From positions 1 through 42,442 of the forward strand of contig JAFXPU010000020.1 of the NCBI GenBank assembly GCA_017527675.1: a stretch of 42,442 nt of DNA, written 5' to 3'. Positions within the stretch are counted from its first letter, which is position 1. Each line of letters starts with the position of its first letter. This stretch comes from Bacilli bacterium (GTDB lineage: Bacteria; Bacillota_I; Bacilli_A; RF39; UBA660). The notes under the pieces are model-generated. The model did not search any database. It saw only the letters and a program-made list of their open reading frames with translations, and had not been told where the DNA came from. The position numbers were made by a program, and so were the translations under genes. Shown in pieces: positions 26,274 through 42,287 of the stretch.

Positions 26274-27161
26274 TTAACAAATTAATCGATATTCACGACA
26301 CATTATTCTTGGATCAGATGAATATTCTAAAATAAACTTGTTATCTTTTCTAACCAAGATTATACCTATTGTCTTATTCTGATTTATTTTTCTTAAATTC
26401 TTATCTATATAATTCATATATACTTCTATTTGACCAATATGTTCTTTTTTTAATTCAGTTATTTTTAATTCTACAACTACATAACAATTGTATTCTATAT
26501 TAAACAACAATAAATCAATGTAGTTATAGTTATCCCCTATTTTTATTCTATATTCATTTTCTATAAATGTGAATCCTGTTCCAAGACTATGCAAGAAAGA
26601 TGATATATCTTCAAGTATCAGTTGTTGTAAAACTTTTTCAGTTATTTTTTCTTTTAAATTATTATTTTTAATTACAACTGGATTAGGTATTATTTCTTTT
26701 ATGCTAGTTTCTTCATTATTAATTATTCTAGATATTGTCTCTTCATTTAATCTTTCATATTCTTGTAGTTTTATTTTTTCTCTTAATTGTCTAACTGATA
26801 AATTTTGTTGTTCTGTTATTTTTATATAATATCTAATTTCATTAATATCTGCTATAGGCAAAAGTTCAACATAATGACCATATGACAATTGTTGCGACAG
26901 TGTCGCAAGTTTTAAAGAAAGTACATAAAACTTGCGTATTCTTGTAAGAGAAGTAAAAGTATACCCTTTTCCAAGTTCGCTAGTTAATCTCTTTGAATAC
27001 TCCTTGATAATTCCTTCTCCATAATGTTTACCTGCTTCAAATAATAATTTACCAACATTATAATAAGTAGTTAGGTCACTTTTATTAATTGAATAATTCT
27101 TAACTCTTTTAGTTATTTCATTATCAATTAATTTGTTTTTAATTTCTACATAATAATTCAT
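26274..27161 (-). CDS. YhcG/DUF1016-family PD-(D/E)xK nuclease-like protein
   Basis: This 295-residue protein has the DUF1016 N-terminal helical domain (about 1-150, with YYNVGKLL and SLTRIRKFY). A C-terminal PDDEXK fold follows: Asp216 in YIDLLLFN, Glu231-x-Lys233 in VVVELKI, and a downstream glutamine in GQIEVYMNY. The catalytic set looks intact, so nuclease activity is plausible though family function is uncertain; homologs often sit in defence or mobile regions. It is monocistronic with a strong AGGAGG site. It is usually about 330-350 residues, so this is a compact form. Confidence 0.85.
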   Translation of the reverse strand: MNYYVEIKNKLIDNEITKRVKNYSINKSDLTTYYNVGKLLFEAGKHYGEGIIKEYSKRLTSELGKGYTFTSLTRIRKFYVLSLKLATLSQQLSYGHYVELLPIADINEIRYYIKITEQQNLSVRQLREKIKLQEYERLNEETISRIINNEETSIKEIIPNPVVIKNNNLKEKITEKVLQQLILEDISSFLHSLGTGFTFIENEYRIKIGDNYNYIDLLLFNIEYNCYVVVELKITELKKEHIGQIEVYMNYIDKNLRKINQNKTIGIILVRKDNKFILEYSSDPRIMCREYRLIC

Positions 27162-29730: not shown

Positions 29731-29754
29731 AAAACAGCATAAGCTGTTTTTTTT
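29728..29754. terminator. Bidirectional terminator between Nudix gene and MBOAT gene
   Basis: An 8-bp stem AAAACAGC/GCTGTTTT with a 4-base loop has T's on both strands. It ends the Nudix gene and the long minus-strand operon. Confidence 0.88.
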
Positions 29755-31111
29755 AGAATCTAAAATAAATAAATGGATTATAACTATTAACTACAATAAA
29801 GATAATAGATATAATAAAGAGAATTAAAAGTAGACTGTCTTTCAAAGTTCCATCTTTCATTTTAATATTTAATGAGAAAATAATACCGGCTACAAAGGCT
29901 ATTATGTAGCGCATACTAAATATTCCTAAATAGTATAGATGTGATATACTACCAAAGCCATAACCACCAAATAATGCTTTAACTGATGTAATTAAATCAT
30001 TAAAGTTAGTTTGTCTAAATATTAACCAACCTAATGCTACAATTATTAAAGTTTTAATGTGATTATACCAAGTATTTTTATCACTATTTTTGAAAACAAA
30101 TTTTTCTAGTAATAAGATAATACCATAATATAGACCCCAGATAACAAAATTCCATGAATCACCATGCCAAAGACCTGTAAGAGTCCAGACAATTAGGATA
30201 TTACGAACTATTTTAGCTGTAGAACAACGATTTCCACCTAATGGAATATAAACGTAATCTCTAAAGAATGATGATAAAGATATATGCCATCTACGCCAAA
30301 AGTCAGTTACACTATAAGCCATATATGGATTATTGAAGTTCTCATTATAATTAAATCCACACATCTTACCTAAACCAATAGCCATATCTGAGTATCCACT
30401 AAAGTCAAAGTAGATTTGTAAACTATAAGCTATTGTGGCAATTAATATTCCAATAAATCCAGCTTCTTTAATACCACTTGTTAAAATAGCATCACATATA
30501 AAAGCCACATTATTAGCAATAATTAACTTCTTAGCAAGACCAATAATAAATCTACGAACACCAGAAGTAAAACCATCAAATGTTGTTTTACGATCTACTA
30601 ATTCTTTTTCAATATCTACATAACGTACTATAGGTCCAGCTATTAATTGAGGAAATGCTGAAATATAACATGCAAGATTTAAAAAATTTCTTTGTGGTTC
30701 ACATTTACCTTTTTTAACATCAATAACATAAGATAATATTTGGAAAGTATAAAAACTAATTCCTATTGGTAAACTAAGATGAATATTATTAATTGATAAA
30801 TTGAAGATATTATTAATATTATCAATAAAGAAATTTAAATATTTAAATGAGAATAATGATAGTAAATTTATCACAATTAATAAAATAAAGATAAATTTAG
30901 AATCATTTTTAGCCATTTTTAACGTTAAGAAATAATTAATAATAATCATAAATAACATTAAAAAGAAATAATAAGGTTCTCCCCAAGCATAGAACGCTAA
31001 AGAGAATAGTAATAAAACTAAATTTTTTGTTCTTATTTTTTTAGCCATAAAGTAGCATAGCAAGAAAAGTGGTAAGAACATAAACATAAATATTACAGAT
31101 GAAAATACCAT
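29753..31111 (-). CDS. MBOAT-family O-acyltransferase (AlgI/PatA-like)
   Basis: This 452-residue multi-pass membrane enzyme moves acetyl groups across the membrane for O-acetylation of a surface polymer. It has about ten hydrophobic segments and the family signature DFWRRWHISLS followed by YVYIPLGG. The catalytic histidine lies in TGLWHG. It follows directly, with no gap, on the DHHW partner, which fits two-component acetylation as in AlgI with AlgJ/AlgX. The polymer is unknown. It is the last gene of the ten-gene operon. Confidence 0.93.
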   Translation of the reverse strand: MVFSSVIFMFMFLPLFLLCYFMAKKIRTKNLVLLLFSLAFYAWGEPYYFFLMLFMIIINYFLTLKMAKNDSKFIFILLIVINLLSLFSFKYLNFFIDNINNIFNLSINNIHLSLPIGISFYTFQILSYVIDVKKGKCEPQRNFLNLACYISAFPQLIAGPIVRYVDIEKELVDRKTTFDGFTSGVRRFIIGLAKKLIIANNVAFICDAILTSGIKEAGFIGILIATIAYSLQIYFDFSGYSDMAIGLGKMCGFNYNENFNNPYMAYSVTDFWRRWHISLSSFFRDYVYIPLGGNRCSTAKIVRNILIVWTLTGLWHGDSWNFVIWGLYYGIILLLEKFVFKNSDKNTWYNHIKTLIIVALGWLIFRQTNFNDLITSVKALFGGYGFGSISHLYYLGIFSMRYIIAFVAGIIFSLNIKMKDGTLKDSLLLILFIISIIFIVVNSYNPFIYFRF

Positions 31112-32281
31112 TTAGTACACCACCTTACTAGCTAATTTATAATTATCAGCATCAAAGATAATATTCTTTGATTCCATTAAGAACAGAATATGTGTAATAT
31201 GATTTTCATTAATATATTTTTCTAATTCCAATTTGTTATTTTTCCATTTTCCATAACGGATATTAATAACATAAGTATTATCAAAATTAGAAGCAAGTAG
31301 GTAATCTATTTGCCATGACATAGAATCACCAACAATTAATAAATTGCGATTATATTCGTTGCTATTTTCATATATTACTTCATCATATTGACCATTAAAA
31401 TATTTAACATAATAATCATAGAATGGATTAGCTTTATTCTCAACTTCTAATGGTTTAAAGTTAACATCATCAATATTAACAATAATATCATTTTTATAAT
31501 CTAGAACAAATAAACTATCTTTAACTTTAGTTGTTAATAAACTTTTAGCAATAGATCCATAATATGGATTTTTTATTTCTTTAGTTTTCAAAGTTATATT
31601 ATTTTCAATACCCCACATATCTAAAATATCTGTATAAGCTTTATAAGCTCCATTTGCATTATAATGATGATCAGTCTTATAGAAGTTTTTTAAATATTCT
31701 TTAGTATTTTTACTATCTAATACCTTATAAGATATATTCTTATCTAATTTAGATGTAAAATCATAAACTAATTCATTAGTTTTATTAACATTTTTAGCAG
31801 TAGTGTATTCATATCTTAGAGGAATATATAATGATACTTTAACATCTGGATATTTAGCAGCTATACCATTATAAAAATCTAAATATTCTTTACTACGATC
31901 TTTAAGTTCATCTTTTGAATAATGATTAACTAAATAATAGAATTTATTATTCTTGTTATAGAATATTTTATCTTGATCATTATTTTCTTTTAAATAGATA
32001 TCATTTAAATAGATAGAATCTATCTTCATATTAGCATTATAATATAGCGAGTTTATTTTATTATAGAAAGGGAAATAGTTATTATATCTATTTTCAATAA
32101 AACTTTCTAAGCTCATTATTTTATCGTATATTTTATCATTTGTACTCTCAACAGTTTTCCAGTTATCTGTTTTATAAAAATTAACTTTATGGATTCTTAT
32201 TAACATTTCCTTAGCGGGAACAAATAAGAATACACCAAATATAATAACTAAAAAACTAATAGTTAAAAATTTGTTTTTCAT
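31112..32281 (-). CDS. DHHW-family (AlgJ/AlgX-like) acetylation partner protein
   Basis: This 389-residue protein has one N-terminal membrane segment (about 5-23) and an extracytoplasmic SGNH-hydrolase-like domain. The hallmark DHHY is at 204-207, followed by NANGAYKAY, and the serine motif is GDSMSW (318-323). Such proteins take acetyl groups delivered by the MBOAT protein and place them on a polysaccharide. The MBOAT gene starts at the very next base after its stop. AGGAGAT is the ribosome site, 14 bases after the AAA+ gene. Confidence 0.88.
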   Translation of the reverse strand: MKNKFLTISFLVIIFGVFLFVPAKEMLIRIHKVNFYKTDNWKTVESTNDKIYDKIMSLESFIENRYNNYFPFYNKINSLYYNANMKIDSIYLNDIYLKENNDQDKIFYNKNNKFYYLVNHYSKDELKDRSKEYLDFYNGIAAKYPDVKVSLYIPLRYEYTTAKNVNKTNELVYDFTSKLDKNISYKVLDSKNTKEYLKNFYKTDHHYNANGAYKAYTDILDMWGIENNITLKTKEIKNPYYGSIAKSLLTTKVKDSLFVLDYKNDIIVNIDDVNFKPLEVENKANPFYDYYVKYFNGQYDEVIYENSNEYNRNLLIVGDSMSWQIDYLLASNFDNTYVINIRYGKWKNNKLELEKYINENHITHILFLMESKNIIFDADNYKLASKVVY

Positions 32282-32295
32282 ATTATCTCCTACAT

Positions 32296-33870
32296 TTATT
32301 CAAGTATTAAACTATCAATTGAAATATCGTTTTTCGTAATTGTTTTTAAGATTTTCTTTTGTTTTTTATCTTTTACATTAGAAGCATGTTTAACAACCGT
32401 TTTTTCATATATATTACGAACAAAACGAGCATTACCAAAATTCTTCATATTACGGTATTTATTAATTATTTCTTCTAAGTAAGTAATAGCCTCATCTTCA
32501 ACTATAAAACCTGCTTTAGTAGTAAAGCCTTTAAATATTTCAATTAATTCAGCTGTTGTATAATCTTCAAATTCAATAGTATAACCAATTCTTGAAGCTA
32601 TACCTGAATTAGAATTTAAAAATCCTTGCATTTCCTTAGTATAACCAGCAAATATAACAACTAGTTTATCACGATAATTCTCCATTGCTTGAATTAAAGT
32701 AGCAATAGCTTCATCATTATAAGAATTATCTTTAGTACTAGCAAGAGTATAAGCCTCATCTATAAATAATACACCATTCATAGCTTTTTCAATAACTGAC
32801 ATTGTTTTAGGAGCTGTTTGACCAACATATTCAGCTACTAAATCTTTTACTGATACTTCTATTAACTTATCTTCTTTAATATATTTTAAATTATATAGTA
32901 TTTCTTTAATTAAACGAGCAATAGTTGTTTTACCAGTACCTGGATTACCCAAGAAAACCATATGTAAGTTAATATCTTTAATCTTAAGATCATTACCAGC
33001 TTTTTTCTTAAGTTCAATAACATCTACAAGTTCTCTTAAAATTGTTTTAACTTTAGCTAAACCAACTAGTTCATCTAAATCTTTAAATATTTCTTCAATA
33101 GTTTTTTCTTGTTCTATTTCTGGCAAAGTTTTATTAAAAGAAATATACTTAACTAAATCATTTTGATACTTATAATAATCTGTATCCTTATGATATGTAG
33201 CTGTAATATAATCTAATAATTTAACATCATCAACATCAGTTACATTTTCTTTAACATAGGCATAAATATCTTGGCAATCAGGACTAATACCTTTTATTTC
33301 TAAATCAAAATATTTCTTAAAATCTTCACGGCCTAAAAAGAAATTATCAAGTTCATTTTGTGTACCAGATATAACAGTTATAGCTTTATTATTAGCTTCA
33401 ATAAATTCATTAAAATTATGAATAAATATTTTACTATTTTTATCTTCTTCTAAGTTAATTCCATTTAAATTATTAAATAGAATAAAACCAAGATCATTTG
33501 TAAAATTATTATCTAATTTATAAGCAGATATTTCTTTTTTCTTATTATTAATATATTTAAAATATGTTCCTGATTTATAAAGTATATCCGTTATTTTAGT
33601 TTCTAATTCATCATTATCCACACTTAAAATTAAGTTAAAAGGTATATAGTTTTTTTCTATTCCTTCACTATATTTACGCATATATTCTATAATTTTTTTT
33701 AAAGTTTCTTTAGAAGAATCACTAATATATAAATCATTGATACTTACAAAAAGAGAAGTCATTTCTTCCTGACTTTCCTCTTTGCTTTTTTCTTTAACTT
33801 CAATTTTTGGTTGTGATTCTATTCCAAAGAAATCTGTATACATATCTTTAAAATAGTCTCTTGTATTCAT
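32296..33870 (-). CDS. CbxX/SpoVK-type AAA+ ATPase with degenerate N-terminal AAA-like module
   Basis: This 524-residue protein has a C-terminal CbxX/CfqX (SpoVK-like) AAA+ domain with Walker A GNPGTGKTT (308-316), Walker B VLFIDEA (367-373) and an arginine-bearing SRIGY motif. Residues about 75-230 look like a second AAA module without a P-loop, retaining a Walker B-like FILFNNLNG and a sensor-like ITVISGTQNE. It is cytosolic. Lying between TelA and the acetylation pair, it may remodel one of the operon's proteins using ATP (inference). Confidence 0.88.
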   Translation of the reverse strand: MNTRDYFKDMYTDFFGIESQPKIEVKEKSKEESQEEMTSLFVSINDLYISDSSKETLKKIIEYMRKYSEGIEKNYIPFNLILSVDNDELETKITDILYKSGTYFKYINNKKKEISAYKLDNNFTNDLGFILFNNLNGINLEEDKNSKIFIHNFNEFIEANNKAITVISGTQNELDNFFLGREDFKKYFDLEIKGISPDCQDIYAYVKENVTDVDDVKLLDYITATYHKDTDYYKYQNDLVKYISFNKTLPEIEQEKTIEEIFKDLDELVGLAKVKTILRELVDVIELKKKAGNDLKIKDINLHMVFLGNPGTGKTTIARLIKEILYNLKYIKEDKLIEVSVKDLVAEYVGQTAPKTMSVIEKAMNGVLFIDEAYTLASTKDNSYNDEAIATLIQAMENYRDKLVVIFAGYTKEMQGFLNSNSGIASRIGYTIEFEDYTTAELIEIFKGFTTKAGFIVEDEAITYLEEIINKYRNMKNFGNARFVRNIYEKTVVKHASNVKDKKQKKILKTITKNDISIDSLILE

Positions 33871-33877
33871 ATTACTC

Positions 33878-35029
33878 CTACTTTTTATTTACATGAATTT
33901 CTAACATTTTGGCTTTTAATTCTTTTTCGATATCTTCTAAAGTCTTTTCAGCTTCAGCACGTTTAGCACGACCTTCAGCATGAATAGCTATAACAGTATC
34001 TAATGTTTCGATTAAATCTTGATTTGTTTTTTGTAATGTTTCAATATCAACAATGGCTCTTTCACTTTCACGAGCTATATCAATTGAACCTTGTTTTAAA
34101 GTTTCACTATTTTTAACTAACATTTCATTAGTTAATTTAGATACAGCTTGTTGTCCTTTTAAGGCACGTTCAGCATTATTAATACCTAAAGCAAGTACCA
34201 TTTGATTTTTCCAAAGTGGAATAGTATTTGTAATTGAACTTTGAATTTTTTCTACTAATTCAGCCTCATTATTTTGTAATAATCTAATTTGTGGTGCCAT
34301 TTGAATAGAAATAATTCTTGTAGTTTTTAAATCATAAATTTTCTTTTCAAAACGATTAATTAAGTTTTCTAAATCATTAACTTTTTGAACATCTAATTGA
34401 TCTCCTGATTTTTCAGCTTGAGCTTTTAATTCTGGAAGATCTTTTTCTCTTAATTCAGTTAATTTTCTTTCACCAGCAATGATATATAATGATATTTCCT
34501 TAAAGAATTCTAAGTTTTTATCATACATAGTATCAAAGATAGTAATATCTTTTAACATTTGAACTTTATCTTTTTCAAGTCCACCTTCAATAGTATCAAT
34601 ATTCTTTTCAATTTTAGAATATTTAGCACGAATATAATCTACTTCTTTTTTAGCTTTATTGAAGATTCTTTCAAAAACATTTTTCTTTTTACCAGAGTTT
34701 GCTATATCTCTATCAAAAGATTTAATTTGACTAACTAAATCAGCAAGCAAATCTCCTACCTCACCAACATCTTTAGTTTTAACATCCTCTAAAATTTCAT
34801 CTGAGAATTTAGAGATTTTTTCTTGAGCAGCTGCACCAAATTGTAATATTTGAGTTGAATCATTAATATCAATTTGTTTATTAAATTCTTCAATAGCATC
34901 TTTTTCTTCTTGAGATAACTCATCATAGTTTAATGATTTTTCAATTTTTCCATCGTTAACTTCAGCATCATTCATTAAATTTTCAATACTTTTTTCATCA
35001 ATTTTCTTTTCTACTTTTAATTCATTCAT
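33878..35029 (-). CDS. TelA/KlaA-family (toxic anion resistance) protein
   Basis: This 383-residue soluble, mostly helical protein follows the TelA/KlaA pattern: an acidic N-terminus, long coiled-coil helices (about 130-350), and motifs such as QFGAAAQEKISKF, DKNLEFFKEISLYIIAGERKL and QMAPQIRLLQNNEAELVEKIQ. The family is linked to tellurite resistance in some plasmids and to cell-envelope stress in Bacillota, but its chemistry is unknown. It sits three bases after the solute-binding gene and seven before the AAA+ gene. XpaC-TelA pairing is conserved in Bacilli and is kept within this operon. Confidence 0.88.
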   Translation of the reverse strand: MNELKVEKKIDEKSIENLMNDAEVNDGKIEKSLNYDELSQEEKDAIEEFNKQIDINDSTQILQFGAAAQEKISKFSDEILEDVKTKDVGEVGDLLADLVSQIKSFDRDIANSGKKKNVFERIFNKAKKEVDYIRAKYSKIEKNIDTIEGGLEKDKVQMLKDITIFDTMYDKNLEFFKEISLYIIAGERKLTELREKDLPELKAQAEKSGDQLDVQKVNDLENLINRFEKKIYDLKTTRIISIQMAPQIRLLQNNEAELVEKIQSSITNTIPLWKNQMVLALGINNAERALKGQQAVSKLTNEMLVKNSETLKQGSIDIARESERAIVDIETLQKTNQDLIETLDTVIAIHAEGRAKRAEAEKTLEDIEKELKAKMLEIHVNKK

Positions 35030-35032
35030 TTT

Positions 35033-36247
35033 TTAACTCTCCTTTAAATAATCTATTAATTTATTGTATGTATCCATTTTTAAACTTGTAACTGTACTAG
35101 TAATTGCTTGTGGTACGCCAATACCAATACTAGATACATCATATGTACCACCTGTGATACCGGTTCTAAATCCGTATCTTTCCCATGCTATTTGACTTAT
35201 TTCTTTGTCATTTAGAGCTTTATATAATTTGGCTCCATTTTCTGTAAATACAGTAAAGCAATGAGAATTCCAAATAGTTGGTGTAGGATATAATATTCTA
35301 ATTTCATCTTTAACTTGTTCAAAAGCATCTGGAGATGAATTTGCAAAATCAATCATACTCTTTTCATAATCAACAATCATTGGTTCTCCACCCATACCAG
35401 TTTTTAAATATCTTTCAAATAAATCCGCTGGTGTATTATTCATATAACCTGATTTAATATAGAAATCTTTTAACTTAGGTAGATTTGCTTCAATATTTTC
35501 ATTTGTTACTTGGGCTTCACTTAAGATAGATAATAATAATCCATAATAAGTAGCACCAGGTGATGATGATACTGGATCTGTTGAAGCTATATTAATAGTT
35601 CCATATAAATTTGGAAGACCAATATCAGACCATTTTTTACCTTCAAGGATATAACTAATTAATTTATTCATATCCGTAATATAGTAAACACCATCTACTT
35701 CTGTAACTATTTGTTCATTAATTAAAGCATCAACAACTGGTTTCCAACTATAAATAACAATAGGTGTATTTAAAGTTAAGCCACCATCTAATACAGTATA
35801 ACGTAATGATTCGCCTAATTCTTTATTAGGTGCTAATTTATAATAATCATAAAATCTTTGATCAGAAGTAAATAAAGCATCATATTTTGATACACCTTCA
35901 GTTTGAATAGTAATATCTTCACCATTATTTAAACGTTCAACAATATCACTATCACCAAAACCAACACTTTCACGAATTAATGGTTTAGTAATTGTTTTAC
36001 CATTACTCCAAGTATCAAAAACAACATCTAATTTATATTTTTCTTTTAAGATTTTTTGTACATCTGGATCAGCTAAGAAATCTTCCTTACCACCACCAGT
36101 TGCTACATAAATAGTTGTAAGTTTAGAATTTTCTTTTTCTTCTTTTTCTTTTTTATTATTACAAGCTTTAATACCAATAATAAGTAAAATCAAAGCAATG
36201 AAAATACCAATACCAATATATAAATTCTTATTCTTCAACTTTTTCAC
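35033..36247 (-). CDS. Membrane-anchored extracellular solute-binding protein (type 2 fold)
   Basis: This 404-residue protein has an N-terminal hydrophobic segment (about 9-28) ending IKAC. The Cys could be lipidated, but Lys at -2 is unusual, so anchoring by the helix is equally likely. The rest resembles type 2 periplasmic-binding proteins for anions (YVATGGGKEDFL, PIVIYSWKPV, SSSPGATYYGLLLS, GGEPMIVDYE). No ABC permease or ATPase lies nearby, so it probably senses or presents ligands and does not feed a transporter (inference). It overlaps the XpaC-like gene by 20 bases. Confidence 0.75.
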   Translation of the reverse strand: MKKLKNKNLYIGIGIFIALILLIIGIKACNNKKEKEEKENSKLTTIYVATGGGKEDFLADPDVQKILKEKYKLDVVFDTWSNGKTITKPLIRESVGFGDSDIVERLNNGEDITIQTEGVSKYDALFTSDQRFYDYYKLAPNKELGESLRYTVLDGGLTLNTPIVIYSWKPVVDALINEQIVTEVDGVYYITDMNKLISYILEGKKWSDIGLPNLYGTINIASTDPVSSSPGATYYGLLLSILSEAQVTNENIEANLPKLKDFYIKSGYMNNTPADLFERYLKTGMGGEPMIVDYEKSMIDFANSSPDAFEQVKDEIRILYPTPTIWNSHCFTVFTENGAKLYKALNDKEISQIAWERYGFRTGITGGTYDVSSIGIGVPQAITSTVTSLKMDTYNKLIDYLKES

Positions 36248-36860
36248 TTCCTTTCACATCAATTTTATTATCTATAATACCATCTGCTTTAAGCATCATA
36301 TCATATACTTTCATATCAGCATCTGTATCTATTATATCATTTTGATATAAATTAGATAAAATACTTTTAAAAGCATTATTAGTATCATCAATCATCTTAT
36401 CAGCTTTTTTCATAAATTCTTTACCTTCTTTTGAAGCTAATTTTTGATTTTCTACTTCATCATAACGGTCAACAATTTTAATTAAAACTGGTAAGTAATA
36501 ATCAAAGAAATTATTTAAACCTTTAGCTTTCTTTGGATTAGTTTCCACTGTAGTAATTATTTTAGATACAGTTTCATTTATTTCTTTTAAATTCTTTTGA
36601 GTTTGTTTATCTTCTACTTTATTAGATAAATTAATTATCTCTTTATTTTGTTTTTTAGCATTTAATAAAATATAGTATAAGTTGCGGTCTTTTGTTTTTA
36701 ATGTTTCTTTAGGTTTAAAACTAGATAACACTAGTTCACTTGCTCCAAAAGCAGCACAGCCAATAGCTAAAGCTGGGCCAATAGTTACAATTGATGCTAG
36801 ATATGGTACAGCAAAGAAAGCTCCACCAACTACTGCAGAAATTGTATCCTTACCCTTCAT
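36228..36860 (-). CDS. XpaC-like protein (5-bromo-4-chloroindolyl phosphate hydrolysis family)
   Basis: This 210-residue protein has an N-terminal hydrophobic hairpin (about 8-47) and a helical, charged C-terminal part resembling XpaC. In Bacillus, XpaC-like proteins are encoded next to TelA-like proteins, and here TelA lies one gene downstream. The name comes from an early indicator-dye phenotype, and the true function is unknown. Its ATG shares one base with the stop of the vWA fusion gene (TAATG). Confidence 0.7.
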   Translation of the reverse strand: MKGKDTISAVVGGAFFAVPYLASIVTIGPALAIGCAAFGASELVLSSFKPKETLKTKDRNLYYILLNAKKQNKEIINLSNKVEDKQTQKNLKEINETVSKIITTVETNPKKAKGLNNFFDYYLPVLIKIVDRYDEVENQKLASKEGKEFMKKADKMIDDTNNAFKSILSNLYQNDIIDTDADMKVYDMMLKADGIIDNKIDVKGSEKVEE

Positions 36861-38485
36861 TAGTTATAACTCCTTACTTCTGCAAATGCTTTTTTAAGAC
36901 CACTTTTACCATCAAATACTTTAGCATTAGTTAAATTAGCTATATCATTTAATTGATAATCATCAGAATCACCAAAAGTTATACTATAAATTGGTATATC
37001 TAATTTATTTTTCTCATAATAATTTTTTAAACTTGAATAATAACCATTATTTGAATAACCATCAGTTAATAAAATAATGGTCTTAGTATAATCATCTGAT
37101 TCCTTTTTTAGAATTTTTAAACCTTCAATAGATGAATCATAAATATTAGTACCACCATAGGCTTCTAATTCATTAATATATTTAATGACATCCTCAGTTT
37201 CATTACCATATTTAGTATCTGATACTTCATCAACTTCATCTCTAAAAGTAACAATTGTTATTTTATCTTTTTCCGAAAATTGCAAATTATCTTCAGAAGC
37301 TTGTTTGTAATCTAATATATAATTCATAGCTTCTTGTAACTCTTCTAAACCTTCACCATACATACTACCAGATACATCTAGACAGAAAACAACATGTGTA
37401 GGTTTTCTTAATGCTTCAATATATAAATTGATAGCAGATGAAATAACTTTCTTAGATGGATATTTCATATCTTTTAAATATTTAGAAGTATCAATACCCC
37501 ATTCAGGATTAAAGACTTTTTTATTTGCATCAGGATTAGTACCACCATACCAAGAACGGTACCCCTTATCTTCCATCTTTTTAATAGCTTCATCGCTTCT
37601 TAAATAACTCTGAATACTCTCAAATTGTTCTTTTGTTTTTGTATCATTAGAATCATTAACAATATATCCAAATGGCATATCATTTAATGCAACACCATCA
37701 ACAGGATATATCAAATATAATGGTTCTTTTTTCTTTTTAATTAATTCTTTATTTAATGATATTAAAGAACTTTCATAATCAATAATAGCATTATAATCAC
37801 CATTTAAATACATTTGACGTAGATAATCTTCATCACCAGAAACACGTTCTACACCACTAAATAAATCCTTTAAATCAGTAACTAATTGTTCATTATTTAA
37901 CATCTCTTCTGTTAAAACTTCAGGACGTCCAGCTAAACTATTTAAGAAATTTAAATAAGTTGTAGCTCCTGTATTAGTTTTAGTAACAGATGCCATAACA
38001 TATTTTAAATTACCACCACGAATAGCATTTAAAATATCACTATTATAAATATTATCATTATCAACAAAACCTAATTCAGTTGCCTTACTTTTAGTAATAC
38101 CTAAAACAACTGGATCAATAACAATAGATTTACTATTTTGTACTAAATAAGAATTTTCTAATTGATATAACCATAATGAATTAGAAATCCAAACAGCATC
38201 ATATAAACTACTATCATCATTTAATTTATCAACTATCTCTAAATCTCCATAGTGTTCTATTTCAATTTTAATACCATTCTTTTTTCCATAGTCAATTATT
38301 TCATCATCCATAGCCTTAGTTGAGGTCGAAGAAATAATACGGAATACATCTTTATTATTAACAACAATTTTATCTAAATCATTTTCCGTATTTTTTGATA
38401 ACATACTAGCTATAATTAAAAAGAATATAACACCAATAATTATTATAGGAATTGAGTCTTTTTTCTGATTATTATTCGTTGCCAT
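36860..38485 (-). CDS. Solute-binding domain fused to a von Willebrand A domain, membrane-anchored
   Basis: This 541-residue protein has a membrane segment at about 11-29 and then an extracellular type 2 binding-protein domain (about 45-335, with ASVTKTNTGATTYLNFL and AIIDYESS). A complete vWA domain follows (about 360-540): DVSGS at 370-374, GGTN at 444-447 and LLTDGYS at 472-478. The metal site is intact, so ion-dependent binding of a partner is expected. The binding domain resembles that of the separate solute-binding protein two genes downstream. Together they could form a ligand-controlled surface complex (inference). Confidence 0.85.
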   Translation of the reverse strand: MATNNNQKKDSIPIIIIGVIFFLIIASMLSKNTENDLDKIVVNNKDVFRIISSTSTKAMDDEIIDYGKKNGIKIEIEHYGDLEIVDKLNDDSSLYDAVWISNSLWLYQLENSYLVQNSKSIVIDPVVLGITKSKATELGFVDNDNIYNSDILNAIRGGNLKYVMASVTKTNTGATTYLNFLNSLAGRPEVLTEEMLNNEQLVTDLKDLFSGVERVSGDEDYLRQMYLNGDYNAIIDYESSLISLNKELIKKKKEPLYLIYPVDGVALNDMPFGYIVNDSNDTKTKEQFESIQSYLRSDEAIKKMEDKGYRSWYGGTNPDANKKVFNPEWGIDTSKYLKDMKYPSKKVISSAINLYIEALRKPTHVVFCLDVSGSMYGEGLEELQEAMNYILDYKQASEDNLQFSEKDKITIVTFRDEVDEVSDTKYGNETEDVIKYINELEAYGGTNIYDSSIEGLKILKKESDDYTKTIILLTDGYSNNGYYSSLKNYYEKNKLDIPIYSITFGDSDDYQLNDIANLTNAKVFDGKSGLKKAFAEVRSYN

Positions 38486-38490
38486 ATATT

Positions 38491-38967
38491 TTATTCACCT
38501 TCTTGATCTTTATTTTTTTTCTTTTTAAATCTTGAAAAGAAATCAAAATGTTGTTTAGCTGTCATAACTTCACCAATAACTGGCATATCACGAGCTGTAT
38601 CATAAGCTTCTTGTCTTGCTTGACGACGCATAGGCATTGATATATCATCTGCTATGTAGCGGGCATCAGAAGCAATTTCATCAGCTAAATATTCAGAATC
38701 ACTTTTAACATTTACCTCAGCATGTTCAATTGTTTTAGCAGGACAAGTAGTTGCTACTAGAGTAAATATATCAATATATTCTTGATTTAGAGGACTAGCA
38801 GCAAATTTAGCTTCAAAATCAGCATTATCACTACAAGATGCTCCAAACTCTTCTATTCTTTTAAATAAATCTTCTACTTTATTTTTAGTATCTTCATTAT
38901 TAACATCATAAGCTGTATAAATAGCATTACGGCGTCCATCAATACAACTCTTAACTAATTCATTCAT
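38491..38967 (-). CDS. Unknown soluble protein of the TelA/vWA operon
   Basis: This 158-residue protein is not recognised. It is helical and polar with no membrane segment, and has three cysteines (KSCID, ASCSD, TTCPA). A middle segment of acidic residues (SDSEYLADEIASDARYIAD) precedes a basic tail (RFKKKKNKDQ) that could bind membrane phospholipids or nucleic acid. It lies five bases before the vWA fusion gene with an AAGGAG site, so it belongs to the same complex or pathway. Confidence 0.7.
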   Translation of the reverse strand: MNELVKSCIDGRRNAIYTAYDVNNEDTKNKVEDLFKRIEEFGASCSDNADFEAKFAASPLNQEYIDIFTLVATTCPAKTIEHAEVNVKSDSEYLADEIASDARYIADDISMPMRRQARQEAYDTARDMPVIGEVMTAKQHFDFFSRFKKKKNKDQEGE

Positions 38968-38977
38968 ATTTTTCTCC

Positions 38978-39346
38978 TTATTTAATAGTTACGTTTAAAT
39001 TTTTATCAACACTTACACTATAAGTTTTAGTATCACTAATTTTATTAGTTACAACGTTAGTATACTCAAATTTAATAGTTGTTTTTCCTTCTTTTAATCC
39101 TTTGAAATAGAAGTATTGTTTAACTCTTCCACCTTCAGCATCTTTATCAATTTCATCATTTTCCAAAGAATCATAAGCAACAATACTAGAATCCTCAATT
39201 GTATATTCCCAATTTTCAGGAACTCCTCCATATGTTTCTAAAGTTATTTTTCCTTTTTCACCTTTCTTATTATCTGTTTTACCACAACCTACTAAAGTAA
39301 AACATAATAACCCCACTAATAAACTTATAAATAATTTCTTTTTCAT
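38978..39346 (-). CDS. Lipoprotein resembling chagasin-type protease inhibitors
   Basis: This 122-residue lipoprotein has a clear signal and lipobox LVGC (Cys21). The mature domain is all-beta, and its segment GGRVKQYFYFKGLKEGKTTIKFEY matches the L4-strand pattern of the chagasin/I42 family of cysteine-protease inhibitors (xGxGxxQxFxFKALKxGxTTIxFxY). The N-terminal NPTTGYxW loop is replaced by GGVPENWEYTI. Inhibitory activity is therefore uncertain, and a plain Ig-like binding domain is the alternative. Confidence 0.6.
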   Translation of the reverse strand: MKKKLFISLLVGLLCFTLVGCGKTDNKKGEKGKITLETYGGVPENWEYTIEDSSIVAYDSLENDEIDKDAEGGRVKQYFYFKGLKEGKTTIKFEYTNVVTNKISDTKTYSVSVDKNLNVTIK

Positions 39347-39347
39347 A

Positions 39348-40010
39348 CTATTCTCCTTTCACCAAATTATAAGAAATATCTATATACTTAATTATTTCTT
39401 CATCACTTAAAGTATTATCTAAAACCATTGATATCCAATACTTTTTACTCATGTGATAAGCCTTATATATACCCTTCTTTTTAACAGCGTCGCCAGCTAA
39501 GTCATCAACTTTAACATTCATAACTTCAACTAAACCACTAGCACTATCTAATTTAGATTTATCAATTTGCATTATAATACCAAACCATTTTTTACTCTTT
39601 TTATTTCGATAAACTCCACAATCAGGAGTACTAGCAAATAAATATTCTGGTAAGATATCATATTTATCTTTAATATATTTAGCTATACGATTGGTTTGTT
39701 CAAAGATAAATAACTTAGGTATACCACATTTTAAAGCAATATCTTTTAAAATAGATTCATATTCTTCTTTAATTTTTAAAGCATATGAACCAGGATTAAT
39801 TAAACGAATATTGCTATATTCTAAATTATAGTTTAAATCAATTACTTGACCACTAACTACGCCATTTAAATTAATTTTAATAATAGCTTCAAAATCACTA
39901 CCAATATCTTTTTTAAAAACATAAGTATTATCTTTAAACTCAAATCCATAGTTTTCAAGCTTTAATAAATCTATTTGGTATTTTTTAAAAACTTCTTCTT
40001 CAATTGTCAT
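39348..40010 (-). CDS. YjbR/MmcQ-family protein, first gene of the ten-gene operon
   Basis: This 220-residue protein has a C-terminal YjbR/MmcQ (CyaY-like fold) domain at about 108-217, with FASTPDCGVYRN, KKWFGIIMQI, EVMNVKV, AYHMSKKYWISMVLD and the final DISYNLV. The first 100 residues form a separate domain. Homologs are labelled DNA-binding on structural grounds only. No ribosome site is visible, and the promoter's -10 ends eight bases before the ATG, so translation may be leaderless. Confidence 0.82.
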   Translation of the reverse strand: MTIEEEVFKKYQIDLLKLENYGFEFKDNTYVFKKDIGSDFEAIIKINLNGVVSGQVIDLNYNLEYSNIRLINPGSYALKIKEEYESILKDIALKCGIPKLFIFEQTNRIAKYIKDKYDILPEYLFASTPDCGVYRNKKSKKWFGIIMQIDKSKLDSASGLVEVMNVKVDDLAGDAVKKKGIYKAYHMSKKYWISMVLDNTLSDEEIIKYIDISYNLVKGE

Positions 40011-40058: not shown

Positions 40059-40087
40059 TTTACTATTATATTTTTTTGTGATAATAT
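40059..40087 (+). promoter_or_regulatory. Promoter of the first DUF3883-like gene
   Basis: TTTACT, a 17-base spacer ending TGTGA, and TAATAT match the promoter at 41207 in layout and sequence. It is divergent from the ten-gene operon. Confidence 0.7.
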
Positions 40088-40110
40088 ATAGAACAGTTGA
40101 GGTGGTTTTG

Positions 40111-41193
40111 ATGGATAAATCTTTAAATGAAATAGAAATAAGTTTTTTTGAAATATTAAATAGAATTACAAATGATAAAAATAAAACAATAGTTGCTGAA
40201 GATATTAAAAAGTTACAAGAAATAAAAGAATATTTTAAAAACAATCCAACATGTGAATTAAAAAAGACATTATTAACTAAAGTAGCTGAATACTATAAAG
40301 TTAAATTAACTGACTTAGATTTCATTAAGGTATTAAATTCTAATAAAGATTATAGACATTTAAGATATATTAAAATGTATAAAACATTACCTTTAATGGA
40401 TCCTAAAAGTATTACTTTATATCATAGTTTAATATCTCAAAATGAAGATTATAGTAATATAGTTAAATACTTTGAAGATATATTTAATTTAATTGATAAA
40501 TATGGTACAAGAATCTATGGTGAAAATGAAAGAAAAATGATATTAGATTTTGTTGAACTTAATAACGATAAATTAACTCATAAACCTCAAAAGTACTATA
40601 CTTTAGAAGAAGAAATGGATAACTATATTAAAGCATTAACTGGTAACTATACTATTGATTATATGGATTTTAAAGAGAGTGAAAAAGAGCATGCCTTACT
40701 TAAAGGAGAAATGCTTGATAACGTTAATATTCAAAAAAAATATTTAGATCGCAAAATAAACAATATAGCTCAATTATATTTCTTTAATACTTTAGTTAAA
40801 GAAAATAATCCAATCTTAGTATCTAGAGATTGTGGTCGTGGTTTTGGCTATGACATTTATACAACTTCTAATCAAGATGGTATGAAAAAAGAATGTTTAT
40901 TTGAAATTAAAGTTGTAAATAACTTAGATGAATTTGAATTAACTAGTACAGAATATAAAACTATGGTAGGCGCAAATAGTTCTAGTATGGTTGATTATTA
41001 TATTTGTTTATCACAAATAGATATGTCTAAAAACCTTAGTATTAATAACACTATTTTAAAAGCTTGTAGTATAACAGCCTTTAAAGATATTAATAGTGAA
41101 AAAATATATTATTTAGATTTTCAAAAACCAGGTATCTTTTTTAAACCTGAAAACATTAAAGAAAATGATAAACAAAAAAAGATAACATTGTAG
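40111..41193 (+). CDS. DUF3883-like PD-(D/E)xK-core protein, paralog A
   Basis: This 360-residue protein has a helical N-terminal part of unknown type. A C-terminal domain (about 225-320) resembles DUF3883: RDCGRGFGYDIYTTS, then LFEIKV, FELTSTEYKTMV and YYICLSQI. The Asp in GYDI and Glu-x-Lys in FEIK form the core of a PD-(D/E)xK nuclease site. ATG 40111 was chosen for its GAGGTGG site; an in-frame ATA 11 codons earlier was not used. It has its own promoter and terminator. The family often accompanies restriction or defence genes, but no such partner is visible here. Confidence 0.75.
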   Translation: MDKSLNEIEISFFEILNRITNDKNKTIVAEDIKKLQEIKEYFKNNPTCELKKTLLTKVAEYYKVKLTDLDFIKVLNSNKDYRHLRYIKMYKTLPLMDPKSITLYHSLISQNEDYSNIVKYFEDIFNLIDKYGTRIYGENERKMILDFVELNNDKLTHKPQKYYTLEEEMDNYIKALTGNYTIDYMDFKESEKEHALLKGEMLDNVNIQKKYLDRKINNIAQLYFFNTLVKENNPILVSRDCGRGFGYDIYTTSNQDGMKKECLFEIKVVNNLDEFELTSTEYKTMVGANSSSMVDYYICLSQIDMSKNLSINNTILKACSITAFKDINSEKIYYLDFQKPGIFFKPENIKENDKQKKITL

Positions 41194-41206: not shown

Positions 41207-41235
41207 TTTACTATTAAATTATTTCGTGATAAGAT
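41207..41235 (+). promoter_or_regulatory. Promoter of the second DUF3883-like gene
   Basis: TTTACT, a 17-base spacer ending CGTGA, and TAAGAT are followed by AATTGAGGTG, a close copy of the paralog A control region. It begins two bases after the paralog A terminator. Confidence 0.7.
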
Positions 41236-41258
41236 ATAAAGCAATTGAGGTGTGTTTT

Positions 41259-42287
41259 ATGATTCAAGATATAATTAATGGTTATAACAAGGCTTTAAGT
41301 CAATTACTAGCTACAGGTAAATATGATAAATCTTTAATATATGGAAATACAAAATCATTTTTATATACTAATAAAGACGTTAATGAAGTAAAAAAAGCAA
41401 GAGAAGTATTTGCTACAGCATTATATGAATTATATAATATGAAAGAACTTAGTAATGCTTTAAATAGTAGTGATGAATATCCATATGCTAAAATAATAAA
41501 TATCTATAAAAATAGTCCAGAAAGATTTTATAAAGAATTACCTTTATTTTTTCAATCAACTACTTATATACCAGAAGGACATTATCCAGAAGATAATATG
41601 AATTGGTTTATTGAAGATTGTGGATTACCACATATTGATAATTTAGATAAATTAAAAGAATTTAATAAAACTTATGGACACTTATGGCCAGCTAGTGAAT
41701 ATGGTTCATATGAAGAAGAAAGAAAAAGATTTTTAGATGCTAAAAACAAAAATATATATGGATTAGATTATGAAAAATTTTTAGCTGAACAAAGTGCTAA
41801 AGAAGCAGTACTTGGTTGTTACAATGAAGAAGATTCTAAAATAGCTTATCTAGATCAAAAATTAGGTAATATGGGTGAATTATATTTATATGATTCTCTA
41901 AAGATTGATAAAGAAACTTGTTTTGTTGCTCGTGATTTAGGTAATGGCTTTGGCTATGATATATATACAACAGCAATTCAAAATGGCGTAAAAAAAGAAT
42001 TCTTATTTGAAGTTAAATCAACTACTATTGCTAATAAAGATTACTTTATCTTATCTAGTAATGAGAAAAAAACTATGGTAGATACTTTAACAAAAGATAA
42101 AACTGAATATGTAGTATGTCTTTCTCATATTAATGCTGAAGATAATATTATTCTTAATTCATTTTTTAAAGCTGTTGATGAAAATACATTCATTAATACA
42201 GCTACTGATGAAGAATATAAATTTGAAAAAACAACTGCTGATAATGGTTATGTCTTTGTTGCTAAACAAAAAATATTAACAATATAA
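41259..42287 (+). CDS. DUF3883-like PD-(D/E)xK-core protein, paralog B
   Basis: This 342-residue protein is homologous to paralog A mainly in its C-terminal half: KIAYLDQKLGNMGELYLYD, then RDLGNGFGYDIYTTA, LFEVKST, FILSSNEKKTMV and YVVCLSHI. The Asp and Glu-x-Lys core is kept. The N-terminal half has diverged much more and likely sets specificity. ATG 41259 follows a TTGAGGTG site. It is followed at once by an insertion sequence that seems to have split its terminator. Confidence 0.75.
   Translation: MIQDIINGYNKALSQLLATGKYDKSLIYGNTKSFLYTNKDVNEVKKAREVFATALYELYNMKELSNALNSSDEYPYAKIINIYKNSPERFYKELPLFFQSTTYIPEGHYPEDNMNWFIEDCGLPHIDNLDKLKEFNKTYGHLWPASEYGSYEEERKRFLDAKNKNIYGLDYEKFLAEQSAKEAVLGCYNEEDSKIAYLDQKLGNMGELYLYDSLKIDKETCFVARDLGNGFGYDIYTTAIQNGVKKEFLFEVKSTTIANKDYFILSSNEKKTMVDTLTKDKTEYVVCLSHINAEDNIILNSFFKAVDENTFINTATDEEYKFEKTTADNGYVFVAKQKILTI

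Follow-up and report, generated by a model that had tools for sequence, protein, structure and literature searches.

The window analyzed here, a stretch of 42,442 nucleotides from a member of the Bacilli, is an entire contig (C4) of a 1.13-Mb genome assembled in 24 contigs and 88.6% complete. On its minus strand lies a run of ten genes, which an earlier note, made from the letters alone, had read as one operon joining extracellular solute-binding proteins (SBPs), a von Willebrand factor A (vWA) domain, XpaC, TelA, and an AAA+ ATPase to the O-acetylation of a surface polymer. All ten open reading frames were recovered on that strand where the note had placed them, and they are as tightly packed as it had said, at most 14 bases apart or overlapping. 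The gaps from the 5' to the 3' end of the run are 1, 10, 5, −1, −20, 3, 7, 14, and 0 bases, the two overlaps lying between the genes for the SBP-vWA fusion and XpaC (−1) and between those for XpaC and a second binding protein, SBP2 (−20). No minus-strand terminator was seen inside the run in a scan in which promoter and terminator signals were not in excess over shuffled sequences, so it is the spacing that argues for a single transcript. Five of the ten genes, encoding SBP-vWA, XpaC, SBP2, TelA, and AAA+, are a conserved set.

Conservation of the five-gene core

Using the SBP-vWA fusion and TelA as queries, we searched for relatives, extracted the gene neighborhoods, and built profiles from them. 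A single scan of the fusion alignment over 84,980 species genomes gave 161 relatives, of which the best 80 were kept. Locus counts refer to the 61 loci with at least 4.5 kb of downstream sequence, mostly from metagenome assemblies and some of them cut by contig ends; they are not corrected for kinship, and SBP-vWA, as the search query, is in every locus compared. Downstream of it, we found SBP2 in 61 of 61 loci, XpaC in 59, TelA in 52, and AAA+ in 31. The order SBP-vWA, XpaC, SBP2, TelA is kept in 52 of the 61 testable loci, from gut Bacilli and Clostridia, and the median gaps along the conserved order, with AAA+ last, are 1, −11, 12, and 15 bases. In the window, XpaC and TelA are encoded together with SBP2 between them, and AAA+ stands at the end of the core also in three loci of the window's own family (L025, L027, and L032).

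The closest named relatives of the fusion protein come mostly from rumen and gut assemblies of Bacilli and Tenericutes. Carriers of the core span from the window's family to Clostridia, at 45 to 50% identity, so the core is not a recently inherited block. In a phylum sample of 392 genomes the fusion was found in only 3, all from the window's family; the picture of a wide spread therefore comes from the searches of genome contigs and of a plasmid collection.

Some loci depart from the standard arrangement. One genome (G081) carries the core in two places, SBP-vWA with SBP2 at one (L028) and XpaC, SBP2, TelA, and the AAA gene at the other (L050). The presence of a separate SBP2 gene at both suggests that neither half can do without this protein. 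In L062, L075, L076, and L103, unrelated genes lie between SBP2 and TelA and the order is otherwise intact. A locus from another Bacilli family (L051:8172-13049) encodes an XpaC-like protein, a protein of 176 amino acids, an AAA+ protein of 682 amino acids, and TelA, and has no binding protein; a Subdoligranulum record (L148:6988-9020) has an XpaC-TelA pair, then another gene, and no binding proteins.

Table 1. Genes of the ten-gene run, from its 5' to its 3' end
Product	Position	Strand	Family match and place in the locus
YjbR-domain protein	39348..40010	−	PF04237, 9e-14; heads the run; neighbor, outside the core
Chagasin-type inhibitor I42 lipoprotein, 122 aa	38978..39346	−	PF09394, 3e-9; neighbor, outside the core
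158-aa protein	38491..38967	−	No family match; neighbor, outside the core
SBP-vWA fusion	36860..38485	−	SBP_bac_11, 1e-11, and vWA PF00092, 7e-17; core
XpaC	36228..36860	−	PF10112, 4e-19; hydrophobic N terminus, helical cytosolic part; core
SBP2, membrane-anchored binding protein	35033..36247	−	No clear Pfam family; paralogue of the SBP domain of the fusion; core
TelA	33878..35029	−	PF05816, 4e-121; core; SPFH protein instead in some relatives
CbxX/SpoVK-type AAA+	32296..33870	−	PF00004 and lid PF17866; N-terminal extension, Walker motifs, YVG pore-loop motif; frequent partner at TelA loci
DHHW/AlgX-like protein	31112..32281	−	Subthreshold ALGX match, E 0.04, and motif reading; neighbor, outside the module
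MBOAT O-acyltransferase	29753..31111	−	PF03062, 6e-27; neighbor, outside the module

Domains and predicted structures of the core proteins

The identities given to TelA, XpaC, and the CbxX-type ATPase agree with Pfam (Table 1), and the run has neither a permease nor an ATPase of ABC type, as the note had observed. The AAA+ protein has the AAA domain, AAA_lid_6, and Walker motifs and scores under every equivalog cutoff in the CbxX/SpoVK/EccA group; therefore, it is not SpoVK, CbbX, or EccA proper. The Walker and YVG pore-loop motifs are retained in six of six aligned copies. PADLOC assigned no defense family to the core genes and returned just weak generic AAA matches.

The fusion protein has a membrane anchor (residues 12 to 31), a class II solute-binding domain (about 44 to 360), and a C-terminal vWA domain, and its structure was predicted with a mean local confidence (pLDDT) of 89. 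The SBP part has the class II binding-protein fold, with the sulfate-binding Sbp of Xanthomonas as the best match (5um2; Z of 25.4 and root mean square deviation [rmsd] of 3.9 over 288 residues); it also matches 6lkg, whose title places this SBP in a two-component signaling system (Z of 23.8 and rmsd of 3.3 over 267 residues). The vWA part matches 4fx5 (Z of 23.0 and rmsd of 1.9 over 168 residues). This domain is intact, as had been claimed: the metal site residues D370, S372, S374, T446, and D475 do not vary among 82 sequences, which come from four phyla. The relatedness of the two binding domains likewise holds, SBP2 and the SBP domain of the fusion being homologous by hhalign (95.5%, E of 1.5e-8); a search of SBP2 against PDB sequences gave nothing significant. 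Both have a YE motif whose glutamate (E238 in the fusion and E295 in SBP2) is invariant in the same sequence sets. By reading of the sequences, the SBPs of Bacillota begin with a membrane anchor, and the fusions of Variovorax, Deinococcus, Sphaerotilus, and Nonomuraea have a lipobox-like cysteine; either feature puts the SBP domain outside the cell.

Exchange of TelA for an SPFH protein

In eight Bacilli loci (L077, L081, L084, L091, L095, L098, L100, and L111), the slot after SBP2 is held by a protein of 319 to 330 amino acids instead of TelA. The two such proteins tested match the SPFH family Band_7_1 (PF13421) with E-values of 1e-28 and 4e-24, the family of Bacillus subtilis YdjI. These eight loci have neither TelA nor AAA+, and whole-genome searches of two of the SPFH-type genomes (G056 and G062) found no TelA and no AAA+ orthologue. 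The SPFH and TelA profiles have no homology by hhalign (0.0%), so the swap is an exchange of nonhomologous proteins. A link of TelA to the major vault protein is named in the title of a 2007 paper cited in PMC7916137. On a quick locus tree (LG+G4), the SPFH loci form two separate clades nested among TelA-type loci, which amounts to two changes with the count limited to TelA and SPFH loci. AAA+ was found in 31 of 52 TelA-type and 0 of 7 SPFH-type loci (Fisher P of 0.003, in which the independence of related loci is overstated). The most economical explanation is that the SPFH protein has the same function as TelA and that AAA+ serves the latter. The module of the window has no SPFH (Band_7_1) gene; another SPFH gene lies elsewhere in the genome (contig C10).

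Copies beyond Bacillota

A tblastn search of the fusion against plasmid-collection records returned distant full-length copies from three other phyla. In the betaproteobacteria Variovorax and Sphaerotilus, the annotated neighbors read hypothetical, TelA, fusion, hypothetical, and the first hypothetical protein is SBP2 (profile E of 9e-21 and 6e-32). The actinomycete Nonomuraea has these four genes in that order, with TelA confirmed by Pfam, and Deinococcus has SBP2, the fusion, and the small protein, with TelA not adjacent. The distant order, SBP2, TelA, SBP-vWA, and a small protein with two transmembrane (TM) segments, amounts to the Bacillota order in circularly permuted form. The small protein (206 to 226 amino acids) looks XpaC-like, with a hydrophobic N terminus and a helical-looking remainder. 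The neighborhoods on an Acinetobacter plasmid and on RP1 have TelA and no SBPs. The Variovorax module (L142:12496-17449) lies beside Wadjet (JetA family) anti-phage genes, with a flotillin-domain gene upstream.

Flanking genes

None of the 61 loci has a gene for MBOAT, DHHW, the I42 lipoprotein, or the 158-aa protein close to the core, and 1 of the 61 has a YjbR match there. In one relative (G008), these genes are spread over three contigs: C21 carries a DHHW-MBOAT pair (61% and 70% identical), C7 the core, and C50 the 158-aa orthologue. The pair is a bicistron of its own in three genomes (G008, G033, and G048), and the 158-aa orthologues of G008, G024, and G068 sit away from the core. All-against-all clustering of neighbors picked out the SPFH gene as the one frequent noncore gene with a fixed position; an ABC ATPase cluster is near 10 loci at scattered positions on both strands. 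The earlier note had proposed a ten-gene system that alters polymer acetylation, had suggested testing whether the MBOAT pair is a fixed member, and had said that the proposal would fall if the gene order were not conserved in related genomes. By gene content the acetylation step does fall, with the pair absent near the core in all 61 loci and encoded apart in relatives, and the surface-acetylation genes are an unrelated neighbor of the core. The flanking genes are adjacent to it in the window and may share its transcript.

As for their identities, the MBOAT assignment and the pairing as a bicistron stand, whereas DHHW was assigned from a subthreshold ALGX match and motif reading. The MBOAT protein is not the D-alanylation enzyme DltB by the NCBIfam test, scoring 159 bits against a cutoff of 375 (TIGR04091). 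Of the two proteins the note had called unknown, the 158-aa product indeed has no family match, and the other has a Pfam match to the chagasin family.

Outside the run, a 295-aa gene (26274-27161, minus strand) has a DUF1016-type look by eye; a 51% identical copy of its product is encoded near the 158-aa orthologue in G068 (L170), and others near core loci L065 and L133. Two adjacent plus-strand genes (40078-41193 and 41226-42287), divergent from the operon, encode similar-looking proteins of 371 and 353 amino acids. The second matches NOV_C (PF13020, 3e-6) and, weakly, the candidate defense family PDC-S36 (4e-5), so they are possibly a nuclease-like or defense pair.

A possible mechanism and its alternatives

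The reading we favor, with middling confidence, is that the stretch from 32296 to 38485 encodes a trans-envelope sensor through which a ligand would control a protective scaffold at the membrane, TelA being recycled by AAA+. It builds on the gene set, its order, homology, the predicted SBP and vWA folds, the invariant metal site, the TelA/SPFH exchange, and the tracking of TelA by AAA+; from these we infer the topology beyond the anchors, a physical complex, the direction of signaling, a ligand, and a protective output. Two outward-facing, membrane-anchored class II SBPs, one of them fused to vWA, would detect the ligand. Its binding or loss would close or open the SBP domains and thereby alter a metal-dependent contact of the vWA domain, perhaps between the two SBPs or with XpaC, and XpaC would relay the state across the membrane. 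Inside, TelA, as a long helical hairpin, would assemble or reorganize at the membrane and so protect it, and AAA+ would take TelA apart and recycle it; in the sister loci an SPFH protein would act in place of TelA, and then no AAA+ would be used. No link to acetylation is needed for such a mechanism. The ligand-sensing envelope machine of the note is retained in part, since the conserved core fits it, but the ATPase is frequent rather than universal and TelA is replaceable.

Published reports agree with parts of this reading, which is why we favor a sensor coupled to a protective scaffold. The sigma-W operons of B. subtilis include both xpaC-yaaN and pspA-ydjGHI (PMC3498285), and membrane recruitment of PspA requires the SPFH protein YdjI (PMC8581546). 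In the transcriptome of Lactococcus lactis under membrane-protein overproduction, XpaC is up 10-fold and TelA 3.4-fold (PMC3139573). A Listeria telA mutant is described, as cited in PMC12791056, as 4-fold more sensitive to nisin.

Several points weigh against the favored reading. The evidence for the complete module consists of gene comparison and predicted structures, the distribution of the module is patchy within the window's family, and AAA+, missing from about half of the loci, cannot be essential. The TelA model is helical throughout, includes a long hairpin (85 and 72 residues), and has low confidence (pLDDT of 61). Structure comparison gave a best VIA Z of 11.9, and the matches were a mixture of helical bundles, ClyA-type pore formers among them, none rising above the noise for long helices; no PspA or ESCRT-III entry was among the TelA structure matches listed, and the TelA sequence profile had no match among PDB chains. 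Because all matches lie below the meaningful level for long helices, we claim no fold for TelA. Similarity between XpaC and the small two-TM protein of other phyla is weak: hhalign gave 63% with one profile (P of 7e-5) and 7 to 20% with subsets, compared with P of 0.3 to 0.8 for unrelated profiles, and the small protein has no Pfam match. Their homology is suggestive only. Our wider proposal is tentative, and we would put it forward with some doubt: that an exchangeable scaffold in the cytosol, either TelA with AAA+ or SPFH, may join SBP-vWA, SBP2, and XpaC in a trans-envelope device present in several phyla, in which an extracellular ligand sets scaffold assembly, TelA being the functional equivalent of SPFH.

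The module might instead handle a solute, the SBPs capturing a toxic or scarce anion or chelate that XpaC and TelA would move, sequester, or expel with power from AAA+. The SBP domain does resemble binders of sulfate, phosphate sugars, iron, and polyamines, and in the annotation of the IncP plasmid RP1, TelA/KlaB is a gene for tellurium resistance. However, the module has no transporter-like membrane protein (XpaC has only a short hydrophobic N terminus and TelA none), roughly half of the loci lack the supposed power source, and the literature on TelA of B. subtilis and Listeria implicates membrane-active agents in addition to anions; we consider this explanation unlikely. Another idea is a device for protein quality or assembly: misassembled envelope proteins or peptides, in place of small solutes, would be the ligands of SBP-vWA and SBP2, and AAA+ and TelA would remodel or extract membrane proteins. 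vWA domains with a metal site are usually protein binders and CbxX-type ATPases are remodelers of protein assemblies, and the induction of XpaC and TelA in L. lactis overproducing membrane proteins would fit as well. SBP residues are strongly conserved in both proteins, though, and the shared, conserved YE motif suggests a small ligand common to the two; the ATPase is also optional, and we rate this account, too, as improbable. That all ten genes act jointly, with O-acetylation of a surface polymer as the output, can be given very little credence: the tight spacing of the ten in the window genome speaks for it, but it is largely refuted by gene content, given the 61 loci without MBOAT/DHHW, I42, and the 158-aa gene and the three genomes with the pair elsewhere.

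Comparison with known systems

The XpaC-TelA pair, the individual domains, and the database name "substrate-binding and VWA domain-containing protein" are already known. The four-gene unit, its permuted form, and the TelA/SPFH exchange were undescribed in the open-access full text searched, a scope outside which most subscription papers fall. In Variovorax and Sphaerotilus, proteins with that database name beside a "toxic anion resistance protein" are distant SBP-vWA and TelA homologues in one cluster with SBP2; compared with the window, the order is permuted, AAA+ is lacking, and SBP2 and the small membrane protein carry no annotation beyond hypothetical.

TelA occurs in 612 plasmid records, most of them conjugative, and is also chromosomal. 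In the IncP kilA operon (klaA, klaB/telA, and klaC), a TelA homologue likewise stands next to companion genes, but no SBP, vWA, or XpaC was recognized in the stretch read, outside which klaC lies. In Ter-type tellurium and stress systems (TerB, TerC, TerD, and TerY), vWA, TelA, and ATPase-type proteins are associated. Unlike these, the ten proteins here include no TerB, TerC, or TerD (Pfam, E of 0.1; the rest of the genome was not searched).

The PspA-YdjGHI system of B. subtilis includes an SPFH protein of the YdjI type, the family found in the TelA slot of the eight sister loci; no PspA was recognized in those loci, and the known complex has no SBP or vWA. In the XpaC-TelA (YaaN) pair of Bacillus, Listeria, and Lactococcus, the same two families are encoded adjacent or nearly so and are connected with envelope stress (PMC3498285, PMC3139573, and PMC12791056). 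To these two-gene units the module described here adds a fixed SBP-vWA and SBP2 and often AAA+. TelA, linked to nisin and tellurite tolerance, is thus given a conserved set of partners with an outward sensor, and the joint exchange of TelA and its ATPase for an SPFH protein is a natural experiment. The question of what TelA does thereby becomes concrete, namely whether it acts as a scaffold at the membrane and whether the AAA+ protein recycles it.

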